NCBI RefSeq assembly: GCF_014077005.1
Contig: NZ_JACGVC010000053.1
Span: forward strand, 372,001 to 436,000
Reading direction: 5' to 3'
Source: Colwellia sp. MB3u-45
GTDB lineage: Bacteria > Pseudomonadota > Gammaproteobacteria > Enterobacterales > Alteromonadaceae
DNA length: 64,000 nucleotides
Under the pieces are notes generated by a model, which did not search any database, was not told the origin of the DNA, and saw nothing but the letters and a program-made list of their open reading frames with translations. Positions within the stretch are counted from its first letter, which is position 1, and every line of letters starts with the position of its first letter. Of this stretch, positions 10,880 through 27,130 are shown piece after piece. The translations under genes were made by a program, and so were the position numbers.

Positions 10880-12265
10880 TTAGAGGTTTTGTAACTCAGC
10901 TTCACAATTGTGTTGCTTGCAAGGTATAAAGGTCCAATGTAATTTTGTTTGATTGATGTTTTTGAATGCCATGGTTAATCGGGCGATTTTGAAGGCGGTA
11001 AGTGACGGAAATTGTTGTTGGTTGATTTCATAACTGACCAGAATTAATGCGCTTTTACCCTCCTTGAAAATGCGGTGTATTTTTATATTTTGATGGTTTT
11101 CTTGCCGAATGCTTTTCCAACCACTAGGTATTAAATTATTTTCATAATAACTGGGTTTACCATCTAAGGCTTCACCATTAAAAACATAAGTAAGCTTAAT
11201 AGTGTTGTCGTTTGAAGGTATATTGTGAGTGACAAAAGAATAAAAATGTATTTTTGGCTGTATTTCAAAAGCAGCATCGCTGGTTAAATTTTCAGTAGCA
11301 GTAGCAGGTACAAGCATTGCGCTAAAAGTGGTTGATGACAAGCCCAACATTAATACCAATACCGTCATAGATGGATAGCTAGGGCTATTTTTGATTTGTG
11401 TTGTATTTGAGGTTGAGGCAATTAAGTCAATGTCAGAAAGCTTGTTACCCCACCAAAAAAGAAAAATCATAAATGGCACATAAAGATACCAGCCAAAAGT
11501 ATTATGATCTTGCATCAAACTACTTTCCATATTGGTATATTCACCAATTAATATTAACGCTGTAATTCTTATCCAGTTAGTCAGTAGTGCCCCAAAAATA
11601 GCGAGGGCAAAAAATCCTAACGCCTTTTTGACATTATTAATATATAGAAAGCTAAATAGTGAACTGATCGCTAATGAAACGATCATGTACCTTAAACCAC
11701 TACAACCATCAGCTATTTCAAAAACACCTGCAGGAATAGTGACAAAGTTACCTTCAACATAAGTCGGCACACTGGTAAAACTCATAAAGTAGGTCACTAG
11801 GCTGACCGATATTTCTTGAAGTATATTGGTCAACATGCCCCAAACTGGCATGATGAAAATTAGAAATATGCTAGGGAAAGCTATATATCTGTTCAATTTG
11901 TAAAGCAGATTAATACTAGTGACTAAAACTGCTAGCAGAGAGCACCAGTAACCTAAACTTATTTGGGCATTGCTCATTATAAATAATGCTAAACAAGAAA
12001 AAATAAATATTACCGTTGCAGGAATGGATAGTTTCTCTCGAAAAGTCAACTTTCCTGCTTTTTGCAATATATAAAACAAATACAGTGAAATAATGGGTAT
12101 TAAGTAAGCATGAGAGTATGTGCCATCATCAAAACTATGTCGCCATAAAGTGACTAAAATAGGTATGTTTAATAAGGCAACGGTGAAAAAAATGAGCAAG
12201 ATACCTAAAAGCGGTGTCTTAAAGAAAATACTAACAATTTCAATGTGTTTGTTAAATTTTATCAT
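10880..12265 (-). CDS. xrtA: Exosortase (XrtA-like) with C-terminal EpsI-like domain
   Basis: A 461-aa polytopic inner-membrane protein that should cleave PEP-CTERM tails and transfer the proteins to an unidentified surface acceptor. About eight helices cover residues 15-272. The conserved exosortase triad is present: Cys188 in EIADGCSGLRYM, Arg233 in LTNWIRITALI and His254 in DHNTFGWY. The N-terminal GTYSHAYLIP loop is also typical. After one more hydrophobic segment (near residue 302) the last 130 residues form an EpsI/DUF3485-like periplasmic domain (WKSIRQENHQNIKIHRI...LILVSYEINQQQFPS). Fusion with EpsI is characteristic of exosortase A. The gene is convergent with the exported barrel protein and divergent from prsT. 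The xrtA symbol is by architecture; exact subfamily needs a profile search. Confidence 0.88.
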   Translation of the reverse strand: MIKFNKHIEIVSIFFKTPLLGILLIFFTVALLNIPILVTLWRHSFDDGTYSHAYLIPIISLYLFYILQKAGKLTFREKLSIPATVIFIFSCLALFIMSNAQISLGYWCSLLAVLVTSINLLYKLNRYIAFPSIFLIFIMPVWGMLTNILQEISVSLVTYFMSFTSVPTYVEGNFVTIPAGVFEIADGCSGLRYMIVSLAISSLFSFLYINNVKKALGFFALAIFGALLTNWIRITALILIGEYTNMESSLMQDHNTFGWYLYVPFMIFLFWWGNKLSDIDLIASTSNTTQIKNSPSYPSMTVLVLMLGLSSTTFSAMLVPATATENLTSDAAFEIQPKIHFYSFVTHNIPSNDNTIKLTYVFNGEALDGKPSYYENNLIPSGWKSIRQENHQNIKIHRIFKEGKSALILVSYEINQQQFPSLTAFKIARLTMAFKNINQTKLHWTFIPCKQHNCEAELQNL

Positions 12266-12589
12266 GTTATTTTATCTATAATATAACGGGAAGAATAAAT
12301 GAAAAGCTTATCTAAAATTAACGCTACTGTTAATTACAATAATAAAATTTATTCAATCGAGTTATTGTTATTGTTGTTGTTATAATTAAGTTAACAAGAT
12401 TTTAATGGTTTGTCTTTATTTAAAGGGTTATAAGCAGCTATATTTACTACAGACAATAAATAATAAGTTATGAGAGCAATATTTATCTAGGTATTAAAGT
12501 TAACTTTGATGAAAATTTAGTCGCAATGCTAGGTTAATTCATTGAGAGCATAGTTAAATATTAAGAATAAAACACAAGGAGTGGATGTT
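12266..12589. other. Divergent promoter region between exosortase and prsT
   Basis: An AT-rich stretch of about 320 bp between two divergent genes. It holds a short run of TTG/TTA triplets near 12362-12382. I looked for a -24/-12 element (GG-N10-GC) on both strands and found none that fits. No gene or RNA is visible. Confidence 0.45.
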
Positions 12590-15349
12590 TTGAAATTCAA
12601 TCAATTAGCAACGTATTTAGGGTTCGCGGTTTTTATATCTGCTTGTGGTGAAAATACAACGTCACAAGAGCATGTTGTCAAGGCGAAGTCTGCGATAGAA
12701 AAAAACGAACTAAGTACAAGTGAAATAGAATTAAAAAATGCTTTAAAAGTTGATGGGGAAAACGCGGAAGCACGCTTTTTATTGGGTCAGTTGTATTTAT
12801 CTCAAGGTAATAGTTTAGTTGCTATTAAAGAGTTAGAGCGAGCGCATTCATTAAACTACGACGCCAATAAAGTTGTACCTTTATTGGCAAGGGCTTATTT
12901 TTTGGCTGAAAATTATGAAGATATTTCAAGCTTATCTGAAGACGGTGAATACTTAGTTATAGAGAGCAAAATTAAGTACTTAGCCTTTAAAATTATTGGC
13001 GCTGTCTTTAGCGAAAAACTTGAGGTAGCTCAAAAAATAACCCTGAAAATAATGTCACTGTCTGAGTCCAACTCCTATACCTTGTTAGCAAATGCTTACG
13101 TTAATTTTGCCGAAAATAATAATGAAGAGGCACTTTCTTTAGTATCAGCAGCTTTACTAGCAGACTCTCAAAATATTGATGCCTTGTTGTTAAAAGGTCA
13201 TATTTCTTTTGCTTTAAATAAATTTGCCAGTGCGACAGAGAATTTCAAGCAATATGAAAAATACCAGCCACAAGTGGGCGTAACTAAATTGTTTATTGCT
13301 CATTCATTATTACGCGATAATAAATATGATGAAGCTGAAAAATATGCCGATGATATTCTTGCCTTTAGCAGTGAACAACCGCTAGCAAATTATGTAAAAG
13401 CTGTGGTTATGTTCGATAAAAAGGACTTTAGACTTGCCAAGTCACATGCCGAAACTGCGCTTAATCAAAACTATAATTTGCCAGTGTTAAAATTAATTGC
13501 TGGCACGAGTGCATTCAATTTAAATAATTATGAAAGCGCTTATCATCACTTAAACGCTATTGTAAAACAAATGCCAGATAACCACTATTCAAGGAAAATA
13601 TTGGCGATAAGTCAGCTTCAGTTGGGGTTAATTGATGATATAAATGAAACACTCATTGGCTTTAACGCTACTACTTCTGAAGAAGTACGTTTTTTATCTA
13701 GTTTGAGCTTTCAACTTGCAGAATTAGGGGCCGTTGACCAAGCTAAGATTTTAGCAAAGCAAGCTAATGAGAGTGCAACCGAGTCGAATGCAGAGCAAAG
13801 TGTTCGTAGCGGTATATTAAAATTAATGACTAATGATCCTTCAGGGGTTGCAGATTTAGAATTAACACTTGAAGCCAATCCAAATTTTGAAGGTGCAGAG
13901 CTTGCGGTTACTTATGCTGCATTTCAAACAGGTGATTATGATAAAGCGCTTAAACTTGCTAAGGCATGGCAAGAAAAACAGCCTGACATAGCGGGTAGCT
14001 ATAATATGCTCGCGGCTATTTATATTGCGCAACAAAAAAATGAGTTCGCTACCCAAGCATTACAAACAAGTTTACTTAAAGAAGCCAATAATCTATTTGC
14101 GCTTACCGAGTTAGCTAAGCTTAATTATACGGAGGGTAATAAAACAGCAGCTGAAAAATTTTCCCTGCGTGCGATTGAACAATATCCAGATAATGCAAAG
14201 GCTTTACGCTATAACTATGCATTAAAACGCGATGAGCAAGCGTTAGCTAAAATTGAGCAGGCTTATAAAAAAAGTAGCGATAATATGGCATTAACTTTGT
14301 TATATATTGACGCGCTTATTAATTCAGGTGATTTGACACAAGCGCTAGTTATTTCCAATGGCATGGAAACTAATATTAAAACACCCAAAAAGGCCTGGTT
14401 ACAACGTATAGCTATTTATAAAAGGCAACAGAATGAGCTGCAATTAATTACCACCATCGAGAAGTGGTTAAAGGCTAACCCTTATCATATAGAGCCTATT
14501 TTAATGGTTTCGGATTATTACGTTAAGCAAAGACAAGTAGACAAAGCACTACATTATCTCGATAAAGCTTTGTTGGATCATCATAAAGAAAGCTTGGTAT
14601 TGAAAATCGTAAAAATGCAATTGTTGTTGGATTATAATAAGCTTTATGAAGCCAAAAAACTCTATCAAGATCAACAGGTTCAGGGTGTTAAGTCTGAGTT
14701 TAAATCAGGTCTAGAAGGGCGTATCGCTTTTCTAGAAAAAGACTTCGTTAAGGCCGCTCAAAAGTTAACGCTTTTTTACCAAGCTTATCCATCACGAAAA
14801 AATGCCTTATTACTTGCCTTGGCGTTTAAAGGTAGCAACCAAGAAGTACGAGCACAAAAGGTTTTGCAGGAATATTTGGCGAAAAATGAGCAAGACGACC
14901 GTATACGAATGATATTGGCTGATAGCTATTTAGCTACGGAGCCTAACAATGCAATTTTAGCTTACGAAAAAATGCTTATTAATGAACCTAGTAATGTCAT
15001 TGTTCTCAATAACCTTTCATGGCTATACTTGGAAAAAGGCGAATTAGAAAAAGCACAATTGCATTCTAAAAAGTCGATTGAAATTGCCCCTGACAATCCA
15101 AATGTTATCGATACAAGAGGCATGGTTCTACTTAAAATAGGGGAAAGGTTAGCCGCATGGAAAGCGTTATCAAAAGCATATAAAATAAGCGATGGGCAGG
15201 ATATGAGTATCGCGCTTAATTATGCAGAGGTATTAATTGCCAATAACCTTAATAAAGAGGCGATAGCACTATTGCAACAATCAGCAACTAATAACAATGA
15301 ACTTAGCCAGCGAAAATCGTCGCTGATGACACTTGCGAAAAAACAGTAG
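12590..15349 (+). CDS. prsT: PrsT-like PEP-CTERM system TPR lipoprotein (copy 1)
   Basis: A 919-aa protein built almost wholly of tetratricopeptide-type helical repeats (e.g. AEARFLLGQLYLSQGNSLVAIKELERA). It begins with a lipoprotein signal peptide ending FISACG, where Cys becomes the lipidated residue. The start is taken as TTG 12590, because the SD AAGGAG (12576-12581) would abut the upstream GTG 12581 but lies about 8 nt from the TTG. Length and architecture match the PrsT family of exosortase loci, thought to act as an envelope scaffold in PEP-CTERM protein handling; its molecular role is not settled. It stands divergent from the exosortase gene and 251 bp before a paralogue. Confidence 0.85.
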   Translation: MKFNQLATYLGFAVFISACGENTTSQEHVVKAKSAIEKNELSTSEIELKNALKVDGENAEARFLLGQLYLSQGNSLVAIKELERAHSLNYDANKVVPLLARAYFLAENYEDISSLSEDGEYLVIESKIKYLAFKIIGAVFSEKLEVAQKITLKIMSLSESNSYTLLANAYVNFAENNNEEALSLVSAALLADSQNIDALLLKGHISFALNKFASATENFKQYEKYQPQVGVTKLFIAHSLLRDNKYDEAEKYADDILAFSSEQPLANYVKAVVMFDKKDFRLAKSHAETALNQNYNLPVLKLIAGTSAFNLNNYESAYHHLNAIVKQMPDNHYSRKILAISQLQLGLIDDINETLIGFNATTSEEVRFLSSLSFQLAELGAVDQAKILAKQANESATESNAEQSVRSGILKLMTNDPSGVADLELTLEANPNFEGAELAVTYAAFQTGDYDKALKLAKAWQEKQPDIAGSYNMLAAIYIAQQKNEFATQALQTSLLKEANNLFALTELAKLNYTEGNKTAAEKFSLRAIEQYPDNAKALRYNYALKRDEQALAKIEQAYKKSSDNMALTLLYIDALINSGDLTQALVISNGMETNIKTPKKAWLQRIAIYKRQQNELQLITTIEKWLKANPYHIEPILMVSDYYVKQRQVDKALHYLDKALLDHHKESLVLKIVKMQLLLDYNKLYEAKKLYQDQQVQGVKSEFKSGLEGRIAFLEKDFVKAAQKLTLFYQAYPSRKNALLLALAFKGSNQEVRAQKVLQEYLAKNEQDDRIRMILADSYLATEPNNAILAYEKMLINEPSNVIVLNNLSWLYLEKGELEKAQLHSKKSIEIAPDNPNVIDTRGMVLLKIGERLAAWKALSKAYKISDGQDMSIALNYAEVLIANNLNKEAIALLQQSATNNNELSQRKSSLMTLAKKQ

Positions 15350-15600
15350 TACTTTGTTTTACATTGACTTTGTATTAACTATTTGTTAACAATTGGAGGT
15401 GGCAGCTTATCTTGTCTATAAACATTTACTTGCTATTGTTTGTTGTCCAAAAGTAGCAAGTAAATAAAATTTCCAATGATGCCTGTCATACTGCTAAGAA
15501 TATGCTTAACTAAATGAATGTCATTAGGCTTTGGACAGCAAGTGCTTTGCTAATATGATAACCACATATGAAGATATTACAAAAAATGGAGTTTCCCCTA

Positions 15601-18390
15601 ATGCCTCGTATAAGTTTAAAACTCATATTCGTATATTTAATAATAATAAATATTATGTCCTGCTCAGATCCGAAAACTGTTGAAGAGTATATGGCAGAAG
15701 CGCAAAGCTATTCTGAAAAAAGGGATTATGCCAGTGCAATAATCGTGTTGAAAAATGCGATTAATCTGGACAGTAATCATCCTCAAACTCGATACCTATT
15801 AGGTGTTTCTTATCTTGATCAAGGTAATTATGTGGGCGCTGAAAAAGAGCTTGAACGTGCATTAGCGCTTAATCCTAATAAACAACAGTTAATGTCAAAA
15901 TTAGTGCAAGTAAAATATAAACTGGGTAAATATGATTACATTTATCAAGTAGCTGAGAATTCTAGTGTATACGAAGACGATGATATGATTGTGATCCTAA
16001 CGTATGCGGGCATTGCTTCTATTAATGAAGGTAAAGATATTCAAGCTAAATTTTATGTAGAAAGTGCATTAGCCATCAGTGATAGTTCAATATATGGACA
16101 AATAGGACGAGCCTATATATCTCATAGTGAGAATGATTTTCAAGAAGGACTTAATACGGTCGAAACACTTCTAGCTACGGCTCCTAATATGGCTGATGCG
16201 ATTATGTTAAAAGGTTATTTATTACAAGCAACCGAACAATTTGAATTAGCAGCGCAAACATTTTCACAATATGCAGTACTTAGGCCTAAAGATGTTCAAG
16301 TACGTTTTTTTATCGCTCAAAACTACATTTACGCACAAAATTTTGATGCCGCTGAATTAGAAGTAGATCGACTCTTAAAAGTGTCGGCTAGCCACCCTTT
16401 AGCTAATCAATTTAAAGCTGAAATAGAGTTTTCCAGGGCAAACTATCAAGCCGCTCAAGAGTACGCCCTAAAGTCACTTATGCAAGGGGAAGGCTTTCAC
16501 ATATCTAAAATTATTGCGGGTGTTAGCAGTTATAAGTTAGGGGATTTAGAACAAGCCTATAATTACTTAAATAGCGTGAAAGCAATGTTACCTGCTCAGC
16601 ATATTGTAAGACAACTGATTATTGAGATACAGCTTAAGCTGGGCTATGAAATTGATGCGGTAGCAGACTTAAGAGCCATGGTGGAGCTAAATACAGCCGA
16701 TCCAGCTTTGCTCACTATGGCTAGTAATGAATTATTGACGTCAGGTAAAAAAGAAGTCGCTGAAGAACTATTGCAATATTCTATTGATTTAGATAGCAAA
16801 AATCCTGAAGAAGTCGCTAAACAAGGTCTCACACAACTTTTCCTTAATAAAACAGAAAAAGGCATAGAAAACTTAGAAAAAGCTTTGAAATTAGACCCCA
16901 ATTTAGAATTTGCCGAACAAAGTCTTGTCATGGGGTATTTAAAGAATAGCCAGTTTACAGAAGCGCTTGTATTTGCTAAGAAGTGGCAGAGTATCGAATC
17001 TAAAAGGGTGCAAGGCTATTTACTCGAAAGTTTAGTATTGGAGCAACAAGGGAATTTGGAAGAGGCCGAAAAACTTTTATATAAAGTAATAGAAATTGAT
17101 GAAAACAATACGGCTGCATTGTTTAGGTTGGCCGTACACTTACATAAAAATGACATGAATAGTGAAGCGTTCAACTATTACACCAAAACGATAAAACTGC
17201 AACCTCAGCATCATAGGGCAATGATCAACTTCACCCGCTTAATTGCGTCTTCAATGACAACTAAGATGGATTTATCAAGTAAAGCAATTCAATTTTATCA
17301 TACTGCACTGGAAGAGAATCCATCAAATAATTACCTGAAATTTGGTTTGGCGTTGATACATAATCAGAATAATACTCCTGAAGAAGCAATCGAATTATTT
17401 AAAGAGATTGAACAAAGCAGAGATCCTATTGTTGGAATTGAACTTGCTTTAGGTGATAGCTACAGACAAATAAAAGACTGGCGCAATGCAGAACGAGCAT
17501 ACCAAACATATAACAAAAATGAAGCTGAAGATTTACAGGTAATACATAAATTATTTTCACTGTATGAGCAAATGGGAGAATTTGATAAAGCCCTTGCGCT
17601 AGTAAAGGAGTCAATTACTTCTCATAAAGACAAACCAGGGTTAGTCTTGCTGAAAGTTTATTATCAATCTCTACTAGGTGAAGAACCAAATTCTCAAGAT
17701 TTAGATGAAATTAAAGCGAATGAAAATATTGCGGATCATTGGTTTGCAGATAAAACATTCGGTCATTTGGCTTATCAGAAAAAAGACTTTGAAGCTTCCA
17801 GCAATTATTATAATGCCGCTTATAATAAGCAACCAAATGAAAAGAACGCAATGTATTGGGCAAAATCGGCAAGCTTGAAAGGTGATAAAGCACAAGCAGT
17901 GGAAATATTAGAAGCGCATGTCGCATCCAACCCGCTGGCGATTAAGGCGAAAATGATGTTGGCAGCCGGCTACATTGTTGCACAAAAACCAGAGAAAGCG
18001 ATGGCTACATATAAAGCGGTTCTCCAAATTGAAAAGAATAATAGTGTCGCGTTAAACAACTTAGCAAACTTGGAGTTACAACAAAATAATACCACAGAGG
18101 CATTAGATTATGCTAAAAAGGCGTTAACAGTTAACCCCAAAAACGCTGATTTTATTGACACCTATGCACAAGCCCTAGTCGCTAATGGACAAATAAAGCA
18201 GGCAATTGAACAATACGATTTAGCGCTATCGTCAAATAGCGACCCTAAAGTTCAAATAATTATTCATAAGGCAGAGGCGTTAATTGCAGACAGTCAAAGT
18301 GAATTAGCCAAATCGTTCCTAACATCGATTAAAACTCAACAGCCTGATGAGCTCGAACAAATTAATAAACTACTAAGTGAAATTAATTAA
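15601..18390 (+). CDS. prsT: PrsT-like PEP-CTERM system TPR lipoprotein (copy 2)
   Basis: A 929-aa TPR protein clearly related to the preceding gene: the opening repeats (SAIIVLKNAINLDSNHPQTRYLLGVSYLDQG) align with those of copy 1, and lengths are nearly equal. A lipoprotein signal peptide ends in IMSCSD. The open frame allows ATG 15568, 15586 or 15601. ATG 15601 is chosen because GGAG (15587-15590) lies at proper distance, the signal peptide starts directly after it, and the upstream ATGs have no SD. It probably anchors in the outer membrane or periplasmic face as a helical solenoid. The gap before it holds no clear terminator, so both copies could share a transcript. Why two copies are kept is unknown. 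Confidence 0.82.
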   Translation: MPRISLKLIFVYLIIINIMSCSDPKTVEEYMAEAQSYSEKRDYASAIIVLKNAINLDSNHPQTRYLLGVSYLDQGNYVGAEKELERALALNPNKQQLMSKLVQVKYKLGKYDYIYQVAENSSVYEDDDMIVILTYAGIASINEGKDIQAKFYVESALAISDSSIYGQIGRAYISHSENDFQEGLNTVETLLATAPNMADAIMLKGYLLQATEQFELAAQTFSQYAVLRPKDVQVRFFIAQNYIYAQNFDAAELEVDRLLKVSASHPLANQFKAEIEFSRANYQAAQEYALKSLMQGEGFHISKIIAGVSSYKLGDLEQAYNYLNSVKAMLPAQHIVRQLIIEIQLKLGYEIDAVADLRAMVELNTADPALLTMASNELLTSGKKEVAEELLQYSIDLDSKNPEEVAKQGLTQLFLNKTEKGIENLEKALKLDPNLEFAEQSLVMGYLKNSQFTEALVFAKKWQSIESKRVQGYLLESLVLEQQGNLEEAEKLLYKVIEIDENNTAALFRLAVHLHKNDMNSEAFNYYTKTIKLQPQHHRAMINFTRLIASSMTTKMDLSSKAIQFYHTALEENPSNNYLKFGLALIHNQNNTPEEAIELFKEIEQSRDPIVGIELALGDSYRQIKDWRNAERAYQTYNKNEAEDLQVIHKLFSLYEQMGEFDKALALVKESITSHKDKPGLVLLKVYYQSLLGEEPNSQDLDEIKANENIADHWFADKTFGHLAYQKKDFEASSNYYNAAYNKQPNEKNAMYWAKSASLKGDKAQAVEILEAHVASNPLAIKAKMMLAAGYIVAQKPEKAMATYKAVLQIEKNNSVALNNLANLELQQNNTTEALDYAKKALTVNPKNADFIDTYAQALVANGQIKQAIEQYDLALSSNSDPKVQIIIHKAEALIADSQSELAKSFLTSIKTQQPDELEQINKLLSEIN

Positions 18391-19904: not shown

Positions 19905-20633
19905 ATGTTTAATTTAAGAAAAAAAATAGGTTTAGCCGCATTGTTAACTGTAAGTTTAGTTGGTTTTAGTCACGCCGACATAATATTGGATGATTTTAGT
20001 TATAGCCCTGTTGTAGATATTGAGGTTAACTCAGGGTCTACATCAGAGACTACAGAAAGATTAGATATCAATGCTCTTGGTGGTGACGTAATTTACACGT
20101 TAATCTATAATGGTGGGCAACTTGATTCAAGTTCGACAAGTATAGACTTTGGTGGTGATGACGCTTTAACTTGGAATAATGATGCTACAATGCTATCTAC
20201 TTTATCATTATTTTACACTGGCACTAATGGTACACCTAGTAGTCCTCTTGATTTAACGGCTAGTGGAAACCAAAATGCATTCTATTATGATATTATATTT
20301 TCTGATATCGGTTTTGATATCAGTATTATTGTAGGCTCTGGCGGCTTTGACTTTGGAACCCGCCATAGTGTTAATGAAAGTGCATATTCATCAGTATCAG
20401 CATCAGTTGGTGGTTTAACTCGTACTACGCTTAGTTTTAGTGATTTTAATGCAGTCTCAGGCTTAGGGGCAGACTTTGCCTCTGTAGACTATGTTCATGT
20501 GTTGCTTTCGACAACCACTGCCGGTGCAGATATGATGATTACTGAATTTGGTACGGTTCCAGAACCTACTAGCCTCGCTATATTTGGTTTAGGGCTAATC
20601 GGCCTAGCGTTTGCTGCAAGAAAAAAATCATAA
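19905..20633 (+). CDS. PEP-CTERM sorting domain-containing protein (substrate 1)
   Basis: A 242-aa exported protein. A Sec signal peptide (KKIGLAALLTVSLVGFSHA) is followed by a beta-rich, Ser/Thr/Gly/Asp-rich body starting DIILDDFSYSP. The C-terminus (residues 218-242) is a complete PEP-CTERM tag: VPEPTSLAIFGLG, a hydrophobic helix and the basic end ARKKS. Such proteins are exported, cleaved at the tag by exosortase and placed in the extracellular matrix or surface. The body has no enzyme motif that I recognise. A good SD (AGGAAG) precedes the ATG, with a sigma-54 promoter candidate upstream and a strong terminator behind, so it is a one-gene transcription unit. It is a close paralogue of the next gene. 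Confidence 0.92.
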   Translation: MFNLRKKIGLAALLTVSLVGFSHADIILDDFSYSPVVDIEVNSGSTSETTERLDINALGGDVIYTLIYNGGQLDSSSTSIDFGGDDALTWNNDATMLSTLSLFYTGTNGTPSSPLDLTASGNQNAFYYDIIFSDIGFDISIIVGSGGFDFGTRHSVNESAYSSVSASVGGLTRTTLSFSDFNAVSGLGADFASVDYVHVLLSTTTAGADMMITEFGTVPEPTSLAIFGLGLIGLAFAARKKS

Positions 20634-20899: not shown

Positions 20900-20954
20900 A
20901 TTGTTTACTCGCAACGGTTGTAACTTGCATAATTTTTAATTATGGAGAATGAAA

Positions 20955-21674
20955 ATGTTAAATTTAAGTAAAAAAATATTAATGACAACAATATTAACCT
21001 TGGGAATGGCGAGTTACAGTTATGCGGACATAGTCCTAGATGATTTTGACTACACGCCTCAACCAGACATAGATATTGTAGTTAATCAGGGTAGTCCTTT
21101 TGATACGACCCAACGAAATAATATTAACGGCTTTGGCGGTGATGTTGTATATGAGTTAACTTATGGTGGCGGTGCCGCTAACACTGATTCATCTACTGTC
21201 ACCTTTAGTCCTGGTCAAATGGCCCTTAGTAATGATGCTACAATGCTATCTACTTTATTGATAACATATTCAGAAATATTTGCTCCGGGAAATGCTACTA
21301 TCGATTTTAGTTCTTTCAATGGTTTTTATTATAACCTGGTAAGCTCTGATTTAGGTTTTTCAATTGTAGTGACTATCGGTTCTGGCGGTGGCACAAATAC
21401 AAGTACCTTTAGTCGTGTTTCATCTGCAGTATCAAATTTACCAGGTGAATTTACCCGTACTAATGTACTTTTTAGTAGCTTTGTGGCTGGGCTAGGCGGA
21501 GGCGCTGATTTTACTGCAGTAGACTATGTTTCAATGTCGTTAACATCAGATTTAGAAGCTGTAGACTTAGTATTTCAAGAACTTGGTGTAACAAATGTAC
21601 CTGAGCCTACATCATTGGCCATTTTTGGCTTAGGCTTAATGGGATTAGCCTTTAGTGCGAGAAAAAAAGTTTAA
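20955..21674 (+). CDS. PEP-CTERM sorting domain-containing protein (substrate 2)
   Basis: A 239-aa paralogue of the preceding PEP-CTERM protein. ATG 20955 is chosen since GGAG (20944-20947) is 7 nt upstream; ATG 20949 would be only 1 nt from it. The signal peptide ends ...GMASYSYA, then DIVLDDFDYTP. The shared pattern TT-x-R-x-x-IN-x-x-GGDVVYELTYGGG and the identical NDATMLSTL segment show recent duplication. The tail is VPEPTSLAIFGLG, a hydrophobic helix, then ARKKV, a full exosortase recognition tag. No catalytic motif is visible; a structural or matrix role is likely. It has its own sigma-54 promoter candidate and terminator. Confidence 0.92.
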   Translation: MLNLSKKILMTTILTLGMASYSYADIVLDDFDYTPQPDIDIVVNQGSPFDTTQRNNINGFGGDVVYELTYGGGAANTDSSTVTFSPGQMALSNDATMLSTLLITYSEIFAPGNATIDFSSFNGFYYNLVSSDLGFSIVVTIGSGGGTNTSTFSRVSSAVSNLPGEFTRTNVLFSSFVAGLGGGADFTAVDYVSMSLTSDLEAVDLVFQELGVTNVPEPTSLAIFGLGLMGLAFSARKKV

Positions 21675-21705
21675 TCATCTATTGTGTCAGCAATAATATG
21701 AAGTA

Positions 21706-21736
21706 TAAAAAAACCTCGTAAAAGCGAGGTTTTTTT
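21706..21736 (+). terminator. Rho-independent terminator after PEP-CTERM gene 2
   Basis: Stem AAACCTCG/CGAGGTTT with loop TAAAAG, flanked by A and T runs. Its stem is the same as in the terminator of PEP-CTERM gene 1, so the duplication probably included the terminator. Confidence 0.88.
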
Positions 21737-21765
21737 ATACTATTTTATAGCTCAGGAGTGTCACT

Positions 21766-22323
21766 GTGTTAGAAGAGTTTCTCCGCAGACAAGAAATATA
21801 CGCGACTAAAAAAATATTATTTTTGTTTCTTCTGGTGTATCTGGTTTTTCCACTATATTTATTACCTAAAATTCTTCCTGAAGGACGTCCGTTAGACTTA
21901 CACCTTTATTACACGCCAACACAGGCCGATACACTTATCGCATCTTATGGCGTTGAAAACCGCCTTGCATATATTAAGGGGCTCATCACTATTGATATGG
22001 TGTATCCGCTTTTTTATTCACTTTTTTTAAGCTTATTACTGACTTTTTTTATTGCGCGGTGTTATGCAAAGCATCATAAAATGCAGTACGTAAGAGTACT
22101 GCCTTTTTTTATCATGTTACTTGATATTATTGAGAATATTTGTATTATTTTAATGCTACTTGAATTTCCCAGCGCAATCGAAAGCCTTGCCTTAGTGTCA
22201 GGTTTGATGACGTTATTAAAGTGGCTACTCATTGCAATAATTTTTGTTATATTGTGCTATGCCGTGATTCATTTTTATCTGCATCGCTCTGATATTGAAG
22301 CGTCGAACAATAACGCGTTTTAA
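21766..22323 (+). CDS. Small polytopic membrane protein of unknown function
   Basis: A 185-aa protein starting at GTG 21766, with AGGAG 7 nt upstream. Four hydrophobic helices are visible: about residues 18-36, 76-95, 106-125 and 140-165. A soluble loop with LDLHLYYTPTQADTLIASYG and RLAYIKGLITIDMVYPLFY lies between helices 1 and 2. The pattern TPxQxxxxxxxYG followed by R-x-x-Y occurs in a group of uncharacterised bacterial membrane proteins, but I cannot name a function. It comes right after the PEP-CTERM terminator and is convergent with the ThiF-nitroreductase gene 40 bp away. Confidence 0.7.
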   Translation: MLEEFLRRQEIYATKKILFLFLLVYLVFPLYLLPKILPEGRPLDLHLYYTPTQADTLIASYGVENRLAYIKGLITIDMVYPLFYSLFLSLLLTFFIARCYAKHHKMQYVRVLPFFIMLLDIIENICIILMLLEFPSAIESLALVSGLMTLLKWLLIAIIFVILCYAVIHFYLHRSDIEASNNNAF

Positions 22324-22362: not shown

Positions 22363-24390
22363 TTACTGTGAATCTTTTACATACCTAAGCTCTTCTAAGC
22401 TTAACCTTACTGATCTACTCGTAGGGAGTGTAGATCGCCCTAGGCGACCGGCAAATATAGCACGACTAGCATTACTGTCGCCTATTAAGCTTTTAAAAAA
22501 ATGGTCCATTTTGATGGCATTTTCTCTGGCCTTTTTATTTTCAGTAAATCTTACATCCGTACGTAAATACTCAGAAAAAATAACAGGGGTCTGCTCGGGT
22601 TGAAAGCCAAGTTGCAACGCTGTGGCTTGCAGCCAAAATTTTTGTACTGCAGCTCCTGCCTCTAAATAGCTTGCTAGCCCAGAGGGCTCTTTGTCAGCAA
22701 TAATAACAAAATGTGCAGAGCTTTTTATTGCGGTTGAAAAGTCCAATAAGAGCTTAGGCAGCAAAGTACCGGCCAGATACTTATCAAGAAAGTGAAAGCG
22801 TGACCAGCTTTTTAATGACCAACGGGATAGGGCAATAGTTAAGGGATCTATACCTAAAGACTTTGCCGGTAGTTTATCTTTACTAAATGTTGAGTTACAG
22901 TTTTTTCTCGGGCTGGTATCTTGCTCAATAGGAGTGAATTCCACTATTTTTGAATGCACGTTAAAGCCTTCTTTCATACTTAAACGAGTTGTGGCATTGC
23001 CGTACATCAACTTAGCAACTTGCCAACGTTCAGCAAAGGACTCTTTCCAAATCACTGAATAGCCTTCAGGTAGTGTTGCTTCTAATTTTTGTTTTTCGGT
23101 TGTAGATAACGGCCTTGTTCCCATCCTTTTTCTCTGCACACAACGTGTTTTTATATAAGGAAAAAGAGCATGAGTTGAAAGTGGCGTTTTAGACGCTTGT
23201 ATTGCTAATTTAAAAGTAGGAAATAAGTCATAGCTTTCTTGGTCAGGATCAAGGCCGTTTTTATTGTTTATTTGGCTGCAGCATATTTCAAAATTGAGAG
23301 ATTGCGCGGCAATTTTTGCATTTTCTAGAAAGCAACCAAGCGCAAGTTTACTGGCGTTACCCTTTAAATCATAAACAACATCTTTTCGGGTATCATGACC
23401 ATGAATGATGCAGCTATGCTCGTCTAAGATTTCAATTCTTAGCGGTTGCATATTGTCGCCACTGGGTGACCATTTAGCGTATTCAAAAATTTGTTCTATC
23501 GGTTTCAATTCAGTATCAATCTTTATGTTTGTTGTTGGCCGCATGACAATTTTTTTAGCTATTTTAAACATTAATCGGGGTAATATGCCGGCATTACCAA
23601 ATGGTCTCCATGTTTTGGCAAACTTATTTCTATAGGCATCGAAATGTAAGCCCCACGGGGCAGCCAAAACAGGCCCTCTATTAAGTAATATTTTTAAAGC
23701 ATAAGTTTCGGCAATTCCGGCACATAAATTTACAGCCATGGGGGTTGAAGGCCCACGTTTTTCAATAAAACTGACGCGACTTTCATCAACAAGGTAAGAG
23801 CGCTGTAGCATAGCTGGAGATAAGCCAATGAGGAACTGAACTAGTTGGTCATTTTCAGTGTCTTTGTCGTCGAAGCGAAAGTATTGTTCGTAAGACATTT
23901 TACCCGGCATGAAACATAAAAATGCACAGCCCATTCCAAGTGGTGCTGCGGTTATAACTGGAATGCTATTCTCATAACATTTCTGAAAAACTGTTTTTCG
24001 AGCTTCTAAGGCAAAAAAATCGAGAGCATCAACGTAAATATCTACACCGCTTAGAAATTCATCTACATTATGAGAAAACACACCTTCTGGAAAAACTTGT
24101 ATATCGATATTTGGGTTTATATCTTTGGCAATTCCCTCCATTACATCAGATTTTTGTTGTCCTAGGGTCGACATGAATGCACCCGATTGACGATTAAAAT
24201 TGTGTACTTCAAAATTGTCAAAATCCGAGATGTTAAAATTATTGACACCTAAGCGGGCAAGAGTGATTAAATGAGCTCCTCCAACACCACCCATACCGGC
24301 AATTGCAATTTTTTTATGTCTTAATTGCTGTTGTTCTTCTTCTGTGACCCAGCCGACGTTTCTGGAAAATGCTTTATTATAATCAAACAT
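22363..24390 (-). CDS. ThiF-family adenylyltransferase fused to a nitroreductase-like domain
   Basis: A 675-aa two-domain cytoplasmic protein. Residues 10-285 are an E1-like ThiF/MoeB domain with the nucleotide loop IAGMGGVGGAHL (32-38 glycine-rich), ISDFDNFEVHNFNRQ (Asp, Arg67) and Lys80, all needed for adenylating a carboxyl group. The zinc CxxC pairs of MoeB are absent. Residues 298-650 resemble a flavin nitroreductase, with WSPSGDNMQPLR (307-318) as the FMN-phosphate motif. This arrangement resembles proteins annotated as the Rv1355c family. It follows the acyltransferase gene by 75 bp on the same strand. The reaction is unknown: activation of a carboxylate by AMP plus a flavin-dependent redox step is what the domains suggest. 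Confidence 0.82.
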   Translation of the reverse strand: MFDYNKAFSRNVGWVTEEEQQQLRHKKIAIAGMGGVGGAHLITLARLGVNNFNISDFDNFEVHNFNRQSGAFMSTLGQQKSDVMEGIAKDINPNIDIQVFPEGVFSHNVDEFLSGVDIYVDALDFFALEARKTVFQKCYENSIPVITAAPLGMGCAFLCFMPGKMSYEQYFRFDDKDTENDQLVQFLIGLSPAMLQRSYLVDESRVSFIEKRGPSTPMAVNLCAGIAETYALKILLNRGPVLAAPWGLHFDAYRNKFAKTWRPFGNAGILPRLMFKIAKKIVMRPTTNIKIDTELKPIEQIFEYAKWSPSGDNMQPLRIEILDEHSCIIHGHDTRKDVVYDLKGNASKLALGCFLENAKIAAQSLNFEICCSQINNKNGLDPDQESYDLFPTFKLAIQASKTPLSTHALFPYIKTRCVQRKRMGTRPLSTTEKQKLEATLPEGYSVIWKESFAERWQVAKLMYGNATTRLSMKEGFNVHSKIVEFTPIEQDTSPRKNCNSTFSKDKLPAKSLGIDPLTIALSRWSLKSWSRFHFLDKYLAGTLLPKLLLDFSTAIKSSAHFVIIADKEPSGLASYLEAGAAVQKFWLQATALQLGFQPEQTPVIFSEYLRTDVRFTENKKARENAIKMDHFFKSLIGDSNASRAIFAGRLGRSTLPTSRSVRLSLEELRYVKDSQ

Positions 24391-24465
24391 CTACTTTCCT
24401 ATTGGTATTTATTTAAGATAATGTTGTACTTAAATGTAGTGTAAGTAATAGGGTGAAAAATGTTT

Positions 24466-25284
24466 TTATTTGACTAATGATAAATTTTTGCAAATATCTT
24501 TAGCTATGGCTTTATATAAACATTTAAATCCAGGAGACAAATCTTCCATAAATATGGTTGCATTAATATAGTACGGTGCCCGTAAACCATGATAATCAAT
24601 GGCTTCTCCAAGCTGAATATAATTGATACCAACAAACTTCATGCTACGTGCTAACCTAGGTTCCATCATGACGTAAACATGTTTAACACCTGTTTCCATA
24701 CCCATTGCTGCTGCTGCCATATATAGCCCAATGGCTATAAATGGAAAGCAACGTAGTTCTTTTTCTGAGTAAGTTGGTTCGTTAATAGCACCAAGCGCGG
24801 AGCCTTTAAATTTATCAGTTTTACGTCGTCTAAATTCCGCTTTTACGGCAAGTCGTGATATTTCAGCTATTTCATGGCGTGGAAAGTTACTTGGGTGTAG
24901 TTCCATATTCTGTATGGAATCTAGGCAGTATTTTTCTATCGGTAATAGTTCAGTTTCGTTTGCTGATTTAACTACTCGTACACAGCTTGTATAAGTATCT
25001 GAAGGTTTGTGTTTTATCATTGCAAAAATAGATTGGGCATCAAATTCATCTTGCTCTTTGCCACCATCTTTTATTTTTTCATAGGCCAGTTCTTCGCAAT
25101 AAACATTGTGTCGAATGCGAAAAACTTCGTCACGTAACTCATCAGTATTGGCAAATTCTGGCTGCAAGAATTGGGTGAAATGCTCAGCAATATTCATCGC
25201 ATCATGATTGATTTTCATTGATGCAATGCGTTTGGTGATGGCTCCAACCACGGGCACGTTTAGTAACCTCTTGCTCCAATTCAT
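24466..25284 (-). CDS. PEP-CTERM/exosortase system-associated acyltransferase (N-acyl amino acid synthase-like)
   Basis: A 272-aa GNAT-fold enzyme resembling LuxI-type autoinducer synthases. Motifs seen are VFRIRHNVYCEELAYE near residue 55, where LuxI proteins bind substrate, then SCVRVV, EISRLAVKAEFRRR (the acyl-donor binding strand/loop) and GVKHVYVMMEPRLARSMKFVG. This pattern is that of the family restricted to exosortase-containing bacteria. Members of it have been shown to make long-chain N-acyl amino acids from acyl-ACP. The gene lies between a patatin lipase gene and the ThiF-nitroreductase gene, all on the minus strand. The amino acid and chain length used here cannot be read from the sequence. 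Confidence 0.88.
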   Translation of the reverse strand: MNWSKRLLNVPVVGAITKRIASMKINHDAMNIAEHFTQFLQPEFANTDELRDEVFRIRHNVYCEELAYEKIKDGGKEQDEFDAQSIFAMIKHKPSDTYTSCVRVVKSANETELLPIEKYCLDSIQNMELHPSNFPRHEIAEISRLAVKAEFRRRKTDKFKGSALGAINEPTYSEKELRCFPFIAIGLYMAAAAMGMETGVKHVYVMMEPRLARSMKFVGINYIQLGEAIDYHGLRAPYYINATIFMEDLSPGFKCLYKAIAKDICKNLSLVK

Positions 25285-25429
25285 TATTTTCAGTTCCTGA
25301 CTTTTAGTCGGTTATGCATGATGATAATTATGTTGTTTTCAGTATAGCTATATAATTAATTTACCACTTTATGTAATTATTATGAAATAAAATTGTTAAT
25401 TATTTATTAACATTCATGATTTTAAACAC

Positions 25430-26251
25430 TTAACGGCCATGATTAATTTTAATGGGCACAATTTTCATTGCAGTTTCATAGCCAATATCAAAAAGGGAAA
25501 ACTTTTTTTCTTTACTCATGCCAAAATCAACGGCTGAGCATAAACCGGTGTTGATAATGATAGTATTATGCCAAAAGGCGTCATTAATATACTCACGTGA
25601 TATGGTTGTCATAAAGGTTCTGATCAATAAGGTTACGTAATTTACGATAGGAAATAGCCCATCTGTTTTGAGCTCGTCATATTCATGCTCACCGCGCAGA
25701 CGAAAACACAATACGGGTGTGCCGTCCATAGCCCAATCTCGGTGTAAGGCATCTTCGGATAAAATACTGCCATCAACCATTAAATGTTTACCAAAGGGTT
25801 TAAAGCTGAAAACCAGTGGAATTGACATAGAAAAACGTACGGCCAAAGAAACTTTCATATTAGGTGTTCTTGCGCGGTTAAATATAACGGGTCGTCCAGT
25901 TTTAACGTCGGTTGCTACTATATGTAAGTTTCGATTTAGGTCGATAAACCTTTTACCTGCTAAGTGTTGGTCAACCCATTGTTCAAAAATGTCACCGGAA
26001 CTTAAACCGCCATTACGAATTAAGCACACTAATGAGAAACCTTTAAATTGGTTGTAATCTGTGGTTATCGCAATATGTTTAATTTTTGCTATCGATAAAC
26101 CAGCAGCATACAAGCTTGCAATTATGCTACCTCCTGATACGCCAACAAGATGAGAAAAATCGATATGCAAATCTTTTAATGCTTTCAAAACGCCGATATG
26201 AGCAGGTGAGCGTGTTCCCCCGCCAGCTAAAATAGGTACTATATTCGTCAC
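25430..26251 (-). CDS. Patatin-like phospholipase family protein
   Basis: A 273-aa single-domain patatin. Oxyanion loop GGGTRSPAHIGVL (residues 10-22), nucleophile Ser39 in GVSGGS, and catalytic Asp160 in MVDGSI form the Ser-Asp dyad. The Arg-x-x-Ala usual in the first loop is replaced by RSPA. No signal peptide, so it is probably cytoplasmic or membrane-peripheral. Patatins release fatty acids from phospholipids or acyl-glycerols. Position upstream of the acyltransferase (145 bp gap, same strand) suggests acyl-chain supply or turnover in the same pathway. It is divergent from the trypsin-like protease gene with a 114-bp shared promoter region. Confidence 0.85.
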   Translation of the reverse strand: MTNIVPILAGGGTRSPAHIGVLKALKDLHIDFSHLVGVSGGSIIASLYAAGLSIAKIKHIAITTDYNQFKGFSLVCLIRNGGLSSGDIFEQWVDQHLAGKRFIDLNRNLHIVATDVKTGRPVIFNRARTPNMKVSLAVRFSMSIPLVFSFKPFGKHLMVDGSILSEDALHRDWAMDGTPVLCFRLRGEHEYDELKTDGLFPIVNYVTLLIRTFMTTISREYINDAFWHNTIIINTGLCSAVDFGMSKEKKFSLFDIGYETAMKIVPIKINHGR

Positions 26252-26365: not shown

Positions 26366-27130
26366 ATGAATAAATTATTACCATTATTAATTTTTGTTGG
26401 GCTGATATTCAGTTCAATAGTCTGTGCTGACTTCGCGGATACGGTGAGCTTACTTAAACCTTCTGTGGTTGGCATTGGTGTTTATACGCCGACAGGACAG
26501 CCGAAAAATCAACTTTATGGCACGGGCTTTGTCATTGGTGATGGCACTTATATCGTGACCAATAACCATGTTATTGAGCAAGAGTTAGATGATAATTTAT
26601 TACAGAAATTAGCCGTCTTTACCGGTAAGGGCCGAGCGGCGAAAGTAAAATTAGCTAAATTGGTTGCCCGTGATGAGGATCATGATATTGCTATTCTTAA
26701 AATTGAAGGGCAGGCGTTACCGGCATTATCATTAGCGAACAATGACTTTCGACGTGAAGGCAGTGCTATCGCGTTTACTGGATTCCCGATTGGCGCGGTG
26801 TTAGGGCTTTATCCTGTCACACACCGAGGTATTATTGCTGCCGTAACACCCACTATTATACCCGTTGATGATGCAAGACAAATAAGCATAGCTATGCTTA
26901 AACGCTTAAGAGATCCTTATTTAGTGTATCAATTAGATGCAACCGCTTATCCGGGCAACAGTGGTAGTGCTATGTATGATGTTAAAACGGGTGAGGTTAT
27001 TGGCATTATAAATAAAGTTTTTGTTCAGCAAAGTAAAGAAACCGTGATCAGTAAGCCAAGCGGCATTACCTATGCGATACCCGTGAAGTATCTACATAAA
27101 CTATTAAGAAAGCATAATATAAAGAGCTAG
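26366..27130 (+). CDS. Periplasmic trypsin-like serine protease (S1C type, no PDZ)
   Basis: A 254-aa exported protease. The signal peptide covers about residues 1-21 (MNKLLPLLIFVGLIFSSIVC-A). The full chymotrypsin-fold triad is present: His68 (NNHVI), Asp107 (DHDIAILKI) and Ser199 in PGNSGSAMYD. The fold matches DegS/HtrA proteases, but the chain ends without a PDZ domain, so activity would have to be controlled otherwise. The Cys at the end of the signal (VCAD) could even mark a lipoprotein, though the lipobox is poor. An AAGGAG SD precedes the ATG. It is the first gene after the exosortase-associated group; a role in envelope quality control is inferred. Confidence 0.85.
   Translation: MNKLLPLLIFVGLIFSSIVCADFADTVSLLKPSVVGIGVYTPTGQPKNQLYGTGFVIGDGTYIVTNNHVIEQELDDNLLQKLAVFTGKGRAAKVKLAKLVARDEDHDIAILKIEGQALPALSLANNDFRREGSAIAFTGFPIGAVLGLYPVTHRGIIAAVTPTIIPVDDARQISIAMLKRLRDPYLVYQLDATAYPGNSGSAMYDVKTGEVIGIINKVFVQQSKETVISKPSGITYAIPVKYLHKLLRKHNIKS

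Follow-up and report, generated by a model that had tools for sequence, protein, structure and literature searches.

Introduction

The described systems closest to the locus considered here make acyl-oxazolones. In Pseudoalteromonas rubra, the OxzA/OxzB pair, which comprises an N-acyl amino acid synthase (NAS) and a ThiF-nitroreductase fusion, gives acyl tyrazolones and phenazolones, according to the accessible parts of two accounts (PMC10404671, PMC12856293). The same three activities in TyzA/TyzB/TyzC yield C12:0-tyrazolone, with ThiF and the flavin oxidase (FDO) encoded on separate genes (PMC10404671). TrzA/TrzS of mycolic-acid bacteria employs a fused ThiF-FDO protein in which cyclisation precedes desaturation; this system is Trp-specific and uses short to medium chains, and the ThiF of TrzS falls in a subcluster separate from OxzB (PMC12856293). 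The thalassotalic, kyonggic and stieleriacine clusters likewise contain NAS, ThiF and nitroreductase genes (PMC12479983). In the available portion of PMC7293339, the Stieleria maiorica cluster is described as containing a PEP-CTERM gene, NAS genes are already linked to the PEP-CTERM/exosortase system, and Craig 2011 is cited for a NAS beside exosortase-system genes. The physiological role of oxazolones is regarded as a major open question by the TrzAS authors (PMC12856293). Here, we analyse three consecutive genes in a stretch of 64,000 nucleotides from Colwellia sp. MB3u-45, presumably a marine gammaproteobacterium (contig NZ_JACGVC010000053.1, positions 372,001 to 436,000; the whole stretch is called the window), whose genome has a size of 4.17 Mb. 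The genes encode a patatin-like acyl hydrolase, a NAS and a ThiF-FDO fusion, and it is likely that they constitute an acyl-oxazolone cluster of the OxzAB/TrzAS kind, used as an optional addition to the PEP-CTERM/exosortase system. This reading is supported by the domains, the intact key residues, the operon-like spacing, the conserved gene order and the nesting of the genes among genomes.

Genes and Key Residues of the Locus

All three genes lie on the minus strand. The patatin-like acyl hydrolase of 273 amino acids (25430..26251, GTG start; PF01734 105.6, cut-off 27.7) is followed by the NAS of 272 amino acids (24466..25284; TIGR03694 258.3 bits, cut-off 111.95) and then by the OxzB/TrzS-like fusion of 675 amino acids (22363..24390), in which ThiF and an Acg-like FDO are recognised by PF00899, PF00881, PRK08223 and solved relatives. 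The original prediction, made from the DNA alone, had read these genes as a patatin, an exosortase-associated acyltransferase and a ThiF-nitroreductase fusion, with which the open reading frame (ORF) coordinates and the Pfam and NCBIfam matches agree. The gaps of 145 bp between patatin and NAS and of 75 bp between NAS and fusion, together with a ribosome-binding site of fair quality preceding the fusion gene, make the three genes compatible with a single transcript. The exosortase locus that had been placed nearby was also found: an XrtA-like exosortase is encoded on the minus strand inside the window (10880..12265; TIGR02602 181.4, cut-off 105.55), approximately 10 kb from the three-gene cluster, with a score of 173 for the XrtA model TIGR03109, under its cut-off of 208.

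The ThiF part of the fusion occupies residues 9-257 (PF00899, 140.7 bits, cut-off 28.1) and is matched by PRK08223 with 412.6 against a cut-off of 266. Among solved structures TcdA aligns best with this part, followed by ThiF (1ZFN) and MoeB; in TcdA a carboxylate is activated and cyclisation ensues. D124 of the fusion aligns under the adenylation Asp of the TDN motif in ThiF 1ZFN, and D121, D124, N66, R67, Q68, K80 and the GGVG loop show no variation across 16 fusion rows. The FDO domain spans about residues 300-668. Its match to the nitroreductase family PF00881 reaches 31.0 against a cut-off of 23.5, with no lone stretch passing by itself, and this half is more firmly placed by profile and fold: the best solved relative is Acg (2YMV), with a profile value of 2.1e-17, which is also the top Foldseek match. 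Across the 16 fusion rows, R469 and Q583 likewise do not vary. The structure model of the fusion has a mean predicted local distance difference test score (pLDDT) of 71.5, and its FDO half is good. The closest sampled genome (G274, of the same genus code) is 96% identical across the fusion.

The NAS falls in TIGR03694, the PEP-CTERM/exosortase-associated acyltransferase family, and an exosortase is present in the same genome. Its profile likeness to acyl-homoserine lactone (autoinducer) synthases and to FeeM (2G0B) is weak and sub-threshold. A dedicated exosortase-A acyl-CoA ligase feeding this NAS was considered and rejected because TIGR03098 gives no above-cut-off match in this genome. One cluster of neighbouring genes, whose one scanned member matches TIGR03098, is present in 23 of the 118 ThiF loci surveyed below.

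Gene Order and Nesting in the Family

The survey covered 295 genomes sampled from one GTDB family, the counts from which are not independent events. A gene was counted as this ThiF above a score limit of 240 bits, placed in a gap of the score list (241.8, then 85.3); this limit leaves out one genome (G252) with a ThiF match 66 residues long, and matches to the FDO half only (G193, G177) were excluded from the count. So defined, this ThiF occurs in 118 of the 295 genomes, and all 118 loci were covered, usually for 8 kb on either side and for less at contig ends. Of the 65 genomes with NAS and without this ThiF, 40 were covered at the NAS locus, starting from the highest-scoring NAS.

NAS was found in 114/118 ThiF loci; of the four from which it is missing, L024 and L054 lie at contig ends. 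It lies upstream of ThiF on the same strand in 112/118. Conserved adjacency in related genomes, whose absence had been set beforehand as refuting the original prediction, was observed, with NAS next to ThiF (start within 1.3 kb upstream on the same strand) in 91/118 loci. The median gap is 49 bp over 113 same-strand pairs, and adjacency of this kind is far more frequent than the chance expectation of about 0.02% per genome, calculated for one copy of each gene in 4 Mb. The FDO is fused to ThiF in 13 of the 118 loci, separate and directly downstream in 19, separate and more distant in one, and missing from 85; a separate FDO lies within 100 bp of ThiF in the 19 same-strand pairs measured. The fusion seen in the window is thus a minority form. 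Five apparent further fusions (G001, G032, G129, G144, G037) were rejected, since the protein match had run over from one gene into the next and the genes prove to be split once ORFs are called. Among the loci without FDO, such as L067, L073 and L083, nearly all have NAS, and their product is perhaps a saturated oxazolone.

At the level of whole genomes, FDO nests in ThiF, ThiF in NAS, and NAS in the exosortase-bearing genomes of this one family. Strong FDO matches occur in 33 genomes, all 33 of which have this ThiF. Weak matches to the FDO profile (<90 bits) in further genomes, including the ThiF-only genomes G014, G094 and G123, are taken as other nitroreductases. NAS is found in 117 of the 118 ThiF genomes; in the exception (G040), ThiF sits on a 4-kb contig. 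Exosortase is found in all 118. Of 182 NAS genomes, 180 have exosortase (exceptions G076 and G252). Exosortase occurs in 208 genomes, including 28 without NAS and 90 without this ThiF. Fisher values calculated for these co-occurrences take no account of kinship and do not stand for probabilities. The exosortase gene itself lies within the covered stretch in 21/118 ThiF loci. In G252 (L169), NAS and patatin are kept beside the short ThiF match and no exosortase match is present in the genome; this could perhaps represent stepwise decay of the system.

In a phylum sample of 398 genomes, PRK08223 matches 16, of which six lie outside the family. In the three of these six loci that were covered, NAS is present in all three, once downstream of ThiF and once as a weak match (66.5 bits), the fused form occurs in one (L213), and patatin in none. 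A plasmid search retrieved far relatives only, those of Nitratidesulfovibrio being 32-35% identical. Plasmids of Nitratidesulfovibrio vulgaris encode a protein of 974-989 amino acids composed of a FeeM-type NAS, ThiF and a nitroreductase (L210, 3062-5986; L211, 3062-6031), which adjoins TPR and PEP-CTERM genes. This far relative thus unites all three activities in a single protein within an exosortase context.

Evolutionary History of ThiF and FDO

The ThiF tree is a quick tree with SH-aLRT (Shimodaira-Hasegawa-like approximate likelihood ratio test) support only, from which the duplicates L004, L008 and L009 were omitted. It places the window in a starred group of 25, of which 21 are ThiF-only genes, and the fused state needs nine changes on this tree, at least five of them by starred branches. 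In the FDO tree, which carries a long-branch warning and omits the duplicate L004, fused FDOs fall into a single group of 20 that includes four separate FDOs, with two changes needed; within it, the FDO of the window groups with those of fusions from other Colwellia, from Alteromonas antoniana and from G273. The patterns of the two trees could reflect loss of FDO from an old fusion or exchange of the ThiF domain. ThiF-only genes as recent truncations with leftovers were rejected, as no FDO remnant was found within 3.5 kb downstream of the 85 loci. Moreover, three deeply separate FDO lineages occur beside or within this ThiF, with some rows 16-22% identical to the type of the window, and their appearance at the same place supports a functional tie between FDO and ThiF.

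The Patatin as a Partner of NAS

The catalytic dyad of the patatin, Ser39 (GxSxG) and Asp160 (DG motif), is invariant in 20 aligned rows with a mean column identity of 57%, and both motifs were caught by a simple pattern in 74 of 86 patatin ORFs. The closest solved structure is PlpD (5FQU). Three patatins score above the cut-off in the host genome, of which the copy at 25430-26251 scores best. Patatin is present in 79/118 ThiF loci, upstream and on the same strand in 77, and its frequency by locus type is 57/85 without FDO, 18/20 with separate FDO and 4/13 with the fusion; two of the nine fused loci in which it is missing sit on contigs of 4.0 and 8.6 kb. It also stands upstream of NAS on the same strand in 30 of the 40 NAS loci of ThiF-less genomes. 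This frequency, taken with the low count in fused loci, links the patatin to the NAS step or to the exosortase locus rather than to ring formation, and the same two observations weaken its candidacy as an oxazolone hydrolase. The placement of the patatin in the pathway by the original prediction thus holds as far as it is a conserved neighbour of NAS, while a role in the ThiF and flavin chemistry is unsupported.

Proposed Pathway and Its Alternatives

From published relatives, the NAS would be expected to acylate an amino acid that is most likely aromatic. ThiF, to judge from its family and conserved site, would adenylate the carboxylate with ATP, whereupon the amide oxygen would close the five-membered oxazolone ring. 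The FDO, using flavin mononucleotide and oxygen, would then add the 2,3-double bond, leading to a conjugated acyl-oxazolone, and the patatin would probably serve the lipid side of NAS, not the ring, by releasing or recycling acyl chains. The order of N-acylation, adenylation with ring closure and oxygen-dependent 2,3-desaturation is suggested by the likenesses of ThiF and FDO together with the order in TrzS. The scheme proposed at the outset, in which an E1-like domain activates an N-acyl amino acid at its carboxylate and a flavin domain oxidises it, would agree with the published acyl-oxazolone relatives. The aldehyde, amide or conjugate proposed along with it would not: the published OxzAB, TyzACB and TrzAS pathways lead us to expect a cyclic dehydro-oxazolone. 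Judged from sequence, the locus appears to be a well-preserved member of the acyl-oxazolone pathway.

Several observations weigh against this reading. The fusion scores under the cut-offs of the TrzS-type model NF005901 (TrzS / Rv1355c family; 138.2 of 476 bits), of NF011424 (PRK14851 subfamily; 324.6 of 1170 bits) and of the Acg family NF047509 (65.4 of 199). The possible correspondence of R469 and Q583 to Arg540 and Gln651 of TrzS is one of spacing alone (114 versus 111), and the structure model is poor in parts of the ThiF half, giving only partial confidence there. Past one fused sister, the nearest ThiF relatives of the window are ThiF-only, which means that even close kin do not all share the oxidation step, and the patatin was observed in just four of the 13 fused loci. 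In addition, the FDO profile was seeded from ThiF-adjacent loci, so that its nesting, although found across whole genomes, starts from a biased seed, and TIGR03694 is defined as exosortase-associated, so that nesting of NAS in exosortase genomes is expected; these two steps are therefore less independent than the ThiF step.

The end product could instead be an open-chain N-acyl dehydroamino acid of the thalassotalic-acid type, with the oxazolone as an intermediate that is opened by water or an esterase, although we regard this as unlikely. Thalassotalea sp. PP2-459, which presumably belongs to the same broad group as the host of the window, has NAS, ThiF and nitroreductase genes and yields N-acyl dehydrotyrosines, an oxazolone not having been observed. 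An oxazolone intermediate would fit with TrzS, in which cyclisation is obligatory before desaturation, and with the hydrolysis of oxazolones by acid. However, hydrolysis during extraction accounts equally for the missing oxazolones, and the patatin, the obvious esterase, occurs without ThiF (30/40) and was not seen in nine of the 13 fused loci.

A different substrate altogether, for instance a peptide or a non-aromatic amino acid product, with a likeness to OxzAB at the family level only, is quite improbable. NAS specificity is not readable from sequence and the fusion-level models are below their cut-offs, as such a substrate would allow, but the TIGR03694 NAS beside ThiF in 91/118 loci and the triple fusion of Nitratidesulfovibrio tie the activities to one substrate chain. 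We give similarly little credence to a more far-reaching idea, in which acyl-oxazolones would be activated lipid donors of the exosortase system and not free signals: the azlactone made by ThiF, with or without FDO, would acylate PEP-CTERM proteins or matrix polysaccharide, the patatin and the HtrA-like protease described below would trim the lipid and protein partners, and the 85 FDO-less loci would represent the basic form, of which the fused form of the window would be an oxidised, more stable variant. About as improbable is a reading in which ThiF spends the activated N-acyl amino acid on an envelope partner, which would be a PEP-CTERM protein, an exopolysaccharide or a lipid acylated at an amine or hydroxyl; the oxazolone would be the reactive donor and the exosortase system would supply the acceptor. 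In its favour, exosortase is present in 118/118 genomes with this ThiF, FDO is missing from 85/118 loci, where a saturated activated species could be of use, and oxazolones react with alcohols. Against it, the homologues characterised so far yield free small molecules, exosortase is also found in 90 genomes of the sample that lack this ThiF, and we know of no covalent adduct of this kind.

The acyl-oxazolone reading has two implications. For the 85 ThiF-only loci, the predicted end product is an oxazolone that is saturated or put to a different use, of which no report was found in the literature searched. Furthermore, within the sampled family the gene for ring formation is confined to genomes with an exosortase (118/118), so its role can be searched for in envelope and matrix biology, and the co-occurrence with exosortase offers a route to the function of oxazolone lipids.

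Neighbouring Genes

A divergent HtrA/DegS-like protease of the trypsin fold, with the motif GNSGS, is encoded on the plus strand at 26366..27130, divergently from the patatin. It has a hydrophobic N-terminal start, and no PDZ domain was found in it. Clustering of ORFs without preset families retrieved the protease as one further constant neighbour, in 102/118 ThiF loci; by profile it is present in 103/118 and in 38 of the 40 NAS loci of ThiF-less genomes, and the GNSGS motif is found in 105 of 108 copies. The PrsT-type protein, present in 102/118 ThiF loci, is equally common, and the protease may be an as yet unnamed component of the exosortase system. The polysaccharide deacetylase and the envC-like neighbours of the window are each kept in 40/118 loci, and simple synteny is therefore no explanation for the protease or the patatin. 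For gpmI, the low count of 26/118 is partly an edge effect, as it lies near the margin of the stretches.

Between the exosortase and the three-gene cluster, the plus strand encodes two TPR proteins of the PrsT type in tandem, the first (12581..15349) being the one on which the PrsT-type profile was built and the second (15568..18390) matching the XrtA/PEP-CTERM system TPR protein PrsT (TIGR02917 560.4 bits, cut-off 312.2). The survey gave 127 such ORFs in 102 loci, some relatives having two near NAS. These are followed on the same strand by a PEP-CTERM protein that is a likely exosortase substrate (19905..20633; TIGR02595 22.7 bits, cut-off 16) and by its paralogue (20949..21674; TIGR02595 22.0 bits, cut-off 16). 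A long hairpin with T runs flanking both sides lies at 21702-21741, between the PEP-CTERM gene and the gene for a hydrophobic protein of 185 amino acids (21766..22323, plus strand), and is likely a terminator working both ways. The 185-amino-acid protein, which no Pfam or NCBIfam family matched, is encoded convergently with the fusion; among the loci covered it stands solely beside ThiF-FDO fusions of the subclade of the window (the window, L006 and L054), and the stretch matched by it in L004 has no open reading. A promoter scan gave no excess (17 versus a shuffle mean of 19.8), and a tRNA search of the window found none.

Comparison with Known Systems

The literature search retrieved no paper combining exosortase and patatin, and the single paper with both PEP-CTERM and oxazolone is unrelated. 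Neither patatin, exosortase nor PEP-CTERM is mentioned in the accessible parts of the OxzAB accounts (PMC10404671, PMC12856293), and patatin is not mentioned in PMC12479983 or in PMC7293339. A link of the patatin or the HtrA-like protease to oxazolones was not found in the literature searched, which did not include the original OxzAB paper. That paper is reportedly de Rond 2021.

As far as OxzAB is described in the accessible accounts, the window resembles it in having a NAS and a ThiF-nitroreductase fusion in a gammaproteobacterium, its fusion being set beside OxzB by description. TrzS shares with the fusion of the window the fused ThiF and FDO, the Asp of the adenylation motif and Acg as the closest solved FDO, and differs in that the latter scores under the NF005901 cut-off. 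In TyzACB, ThiF and FDO are on split genes in contrast to the fusion of the window. The thalassotalic, kyonggic and stieleriacine clusters also have split ThiF and nitroreductase genes, and open-chain dehydrotyrosines were found. The PRK14852 proteins of Nitratidesulfovibrio have the same ThiF-nitroreductase order and a TPR/PEP-CTERM context but differ by the third fused domain, the FeeM-type NAS. For the NAS-exosortase link of Craig 2011, no ThiF/FDO tailoring or nesting of it is described in what was accessible. The original prediction had considered the combination of genes to be undescribed; with OxzAB, TyzACB and TrzAS published as acyl-oxazolone pathways, an undescribed pathway is ruled out. 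Collectively, the pathway is known and so is the link between NAS and exosortase, and what is new in this comparison is the nesting of ThiF and FDO, the frequent ThiF-only form, and the patatin and protease as partners.

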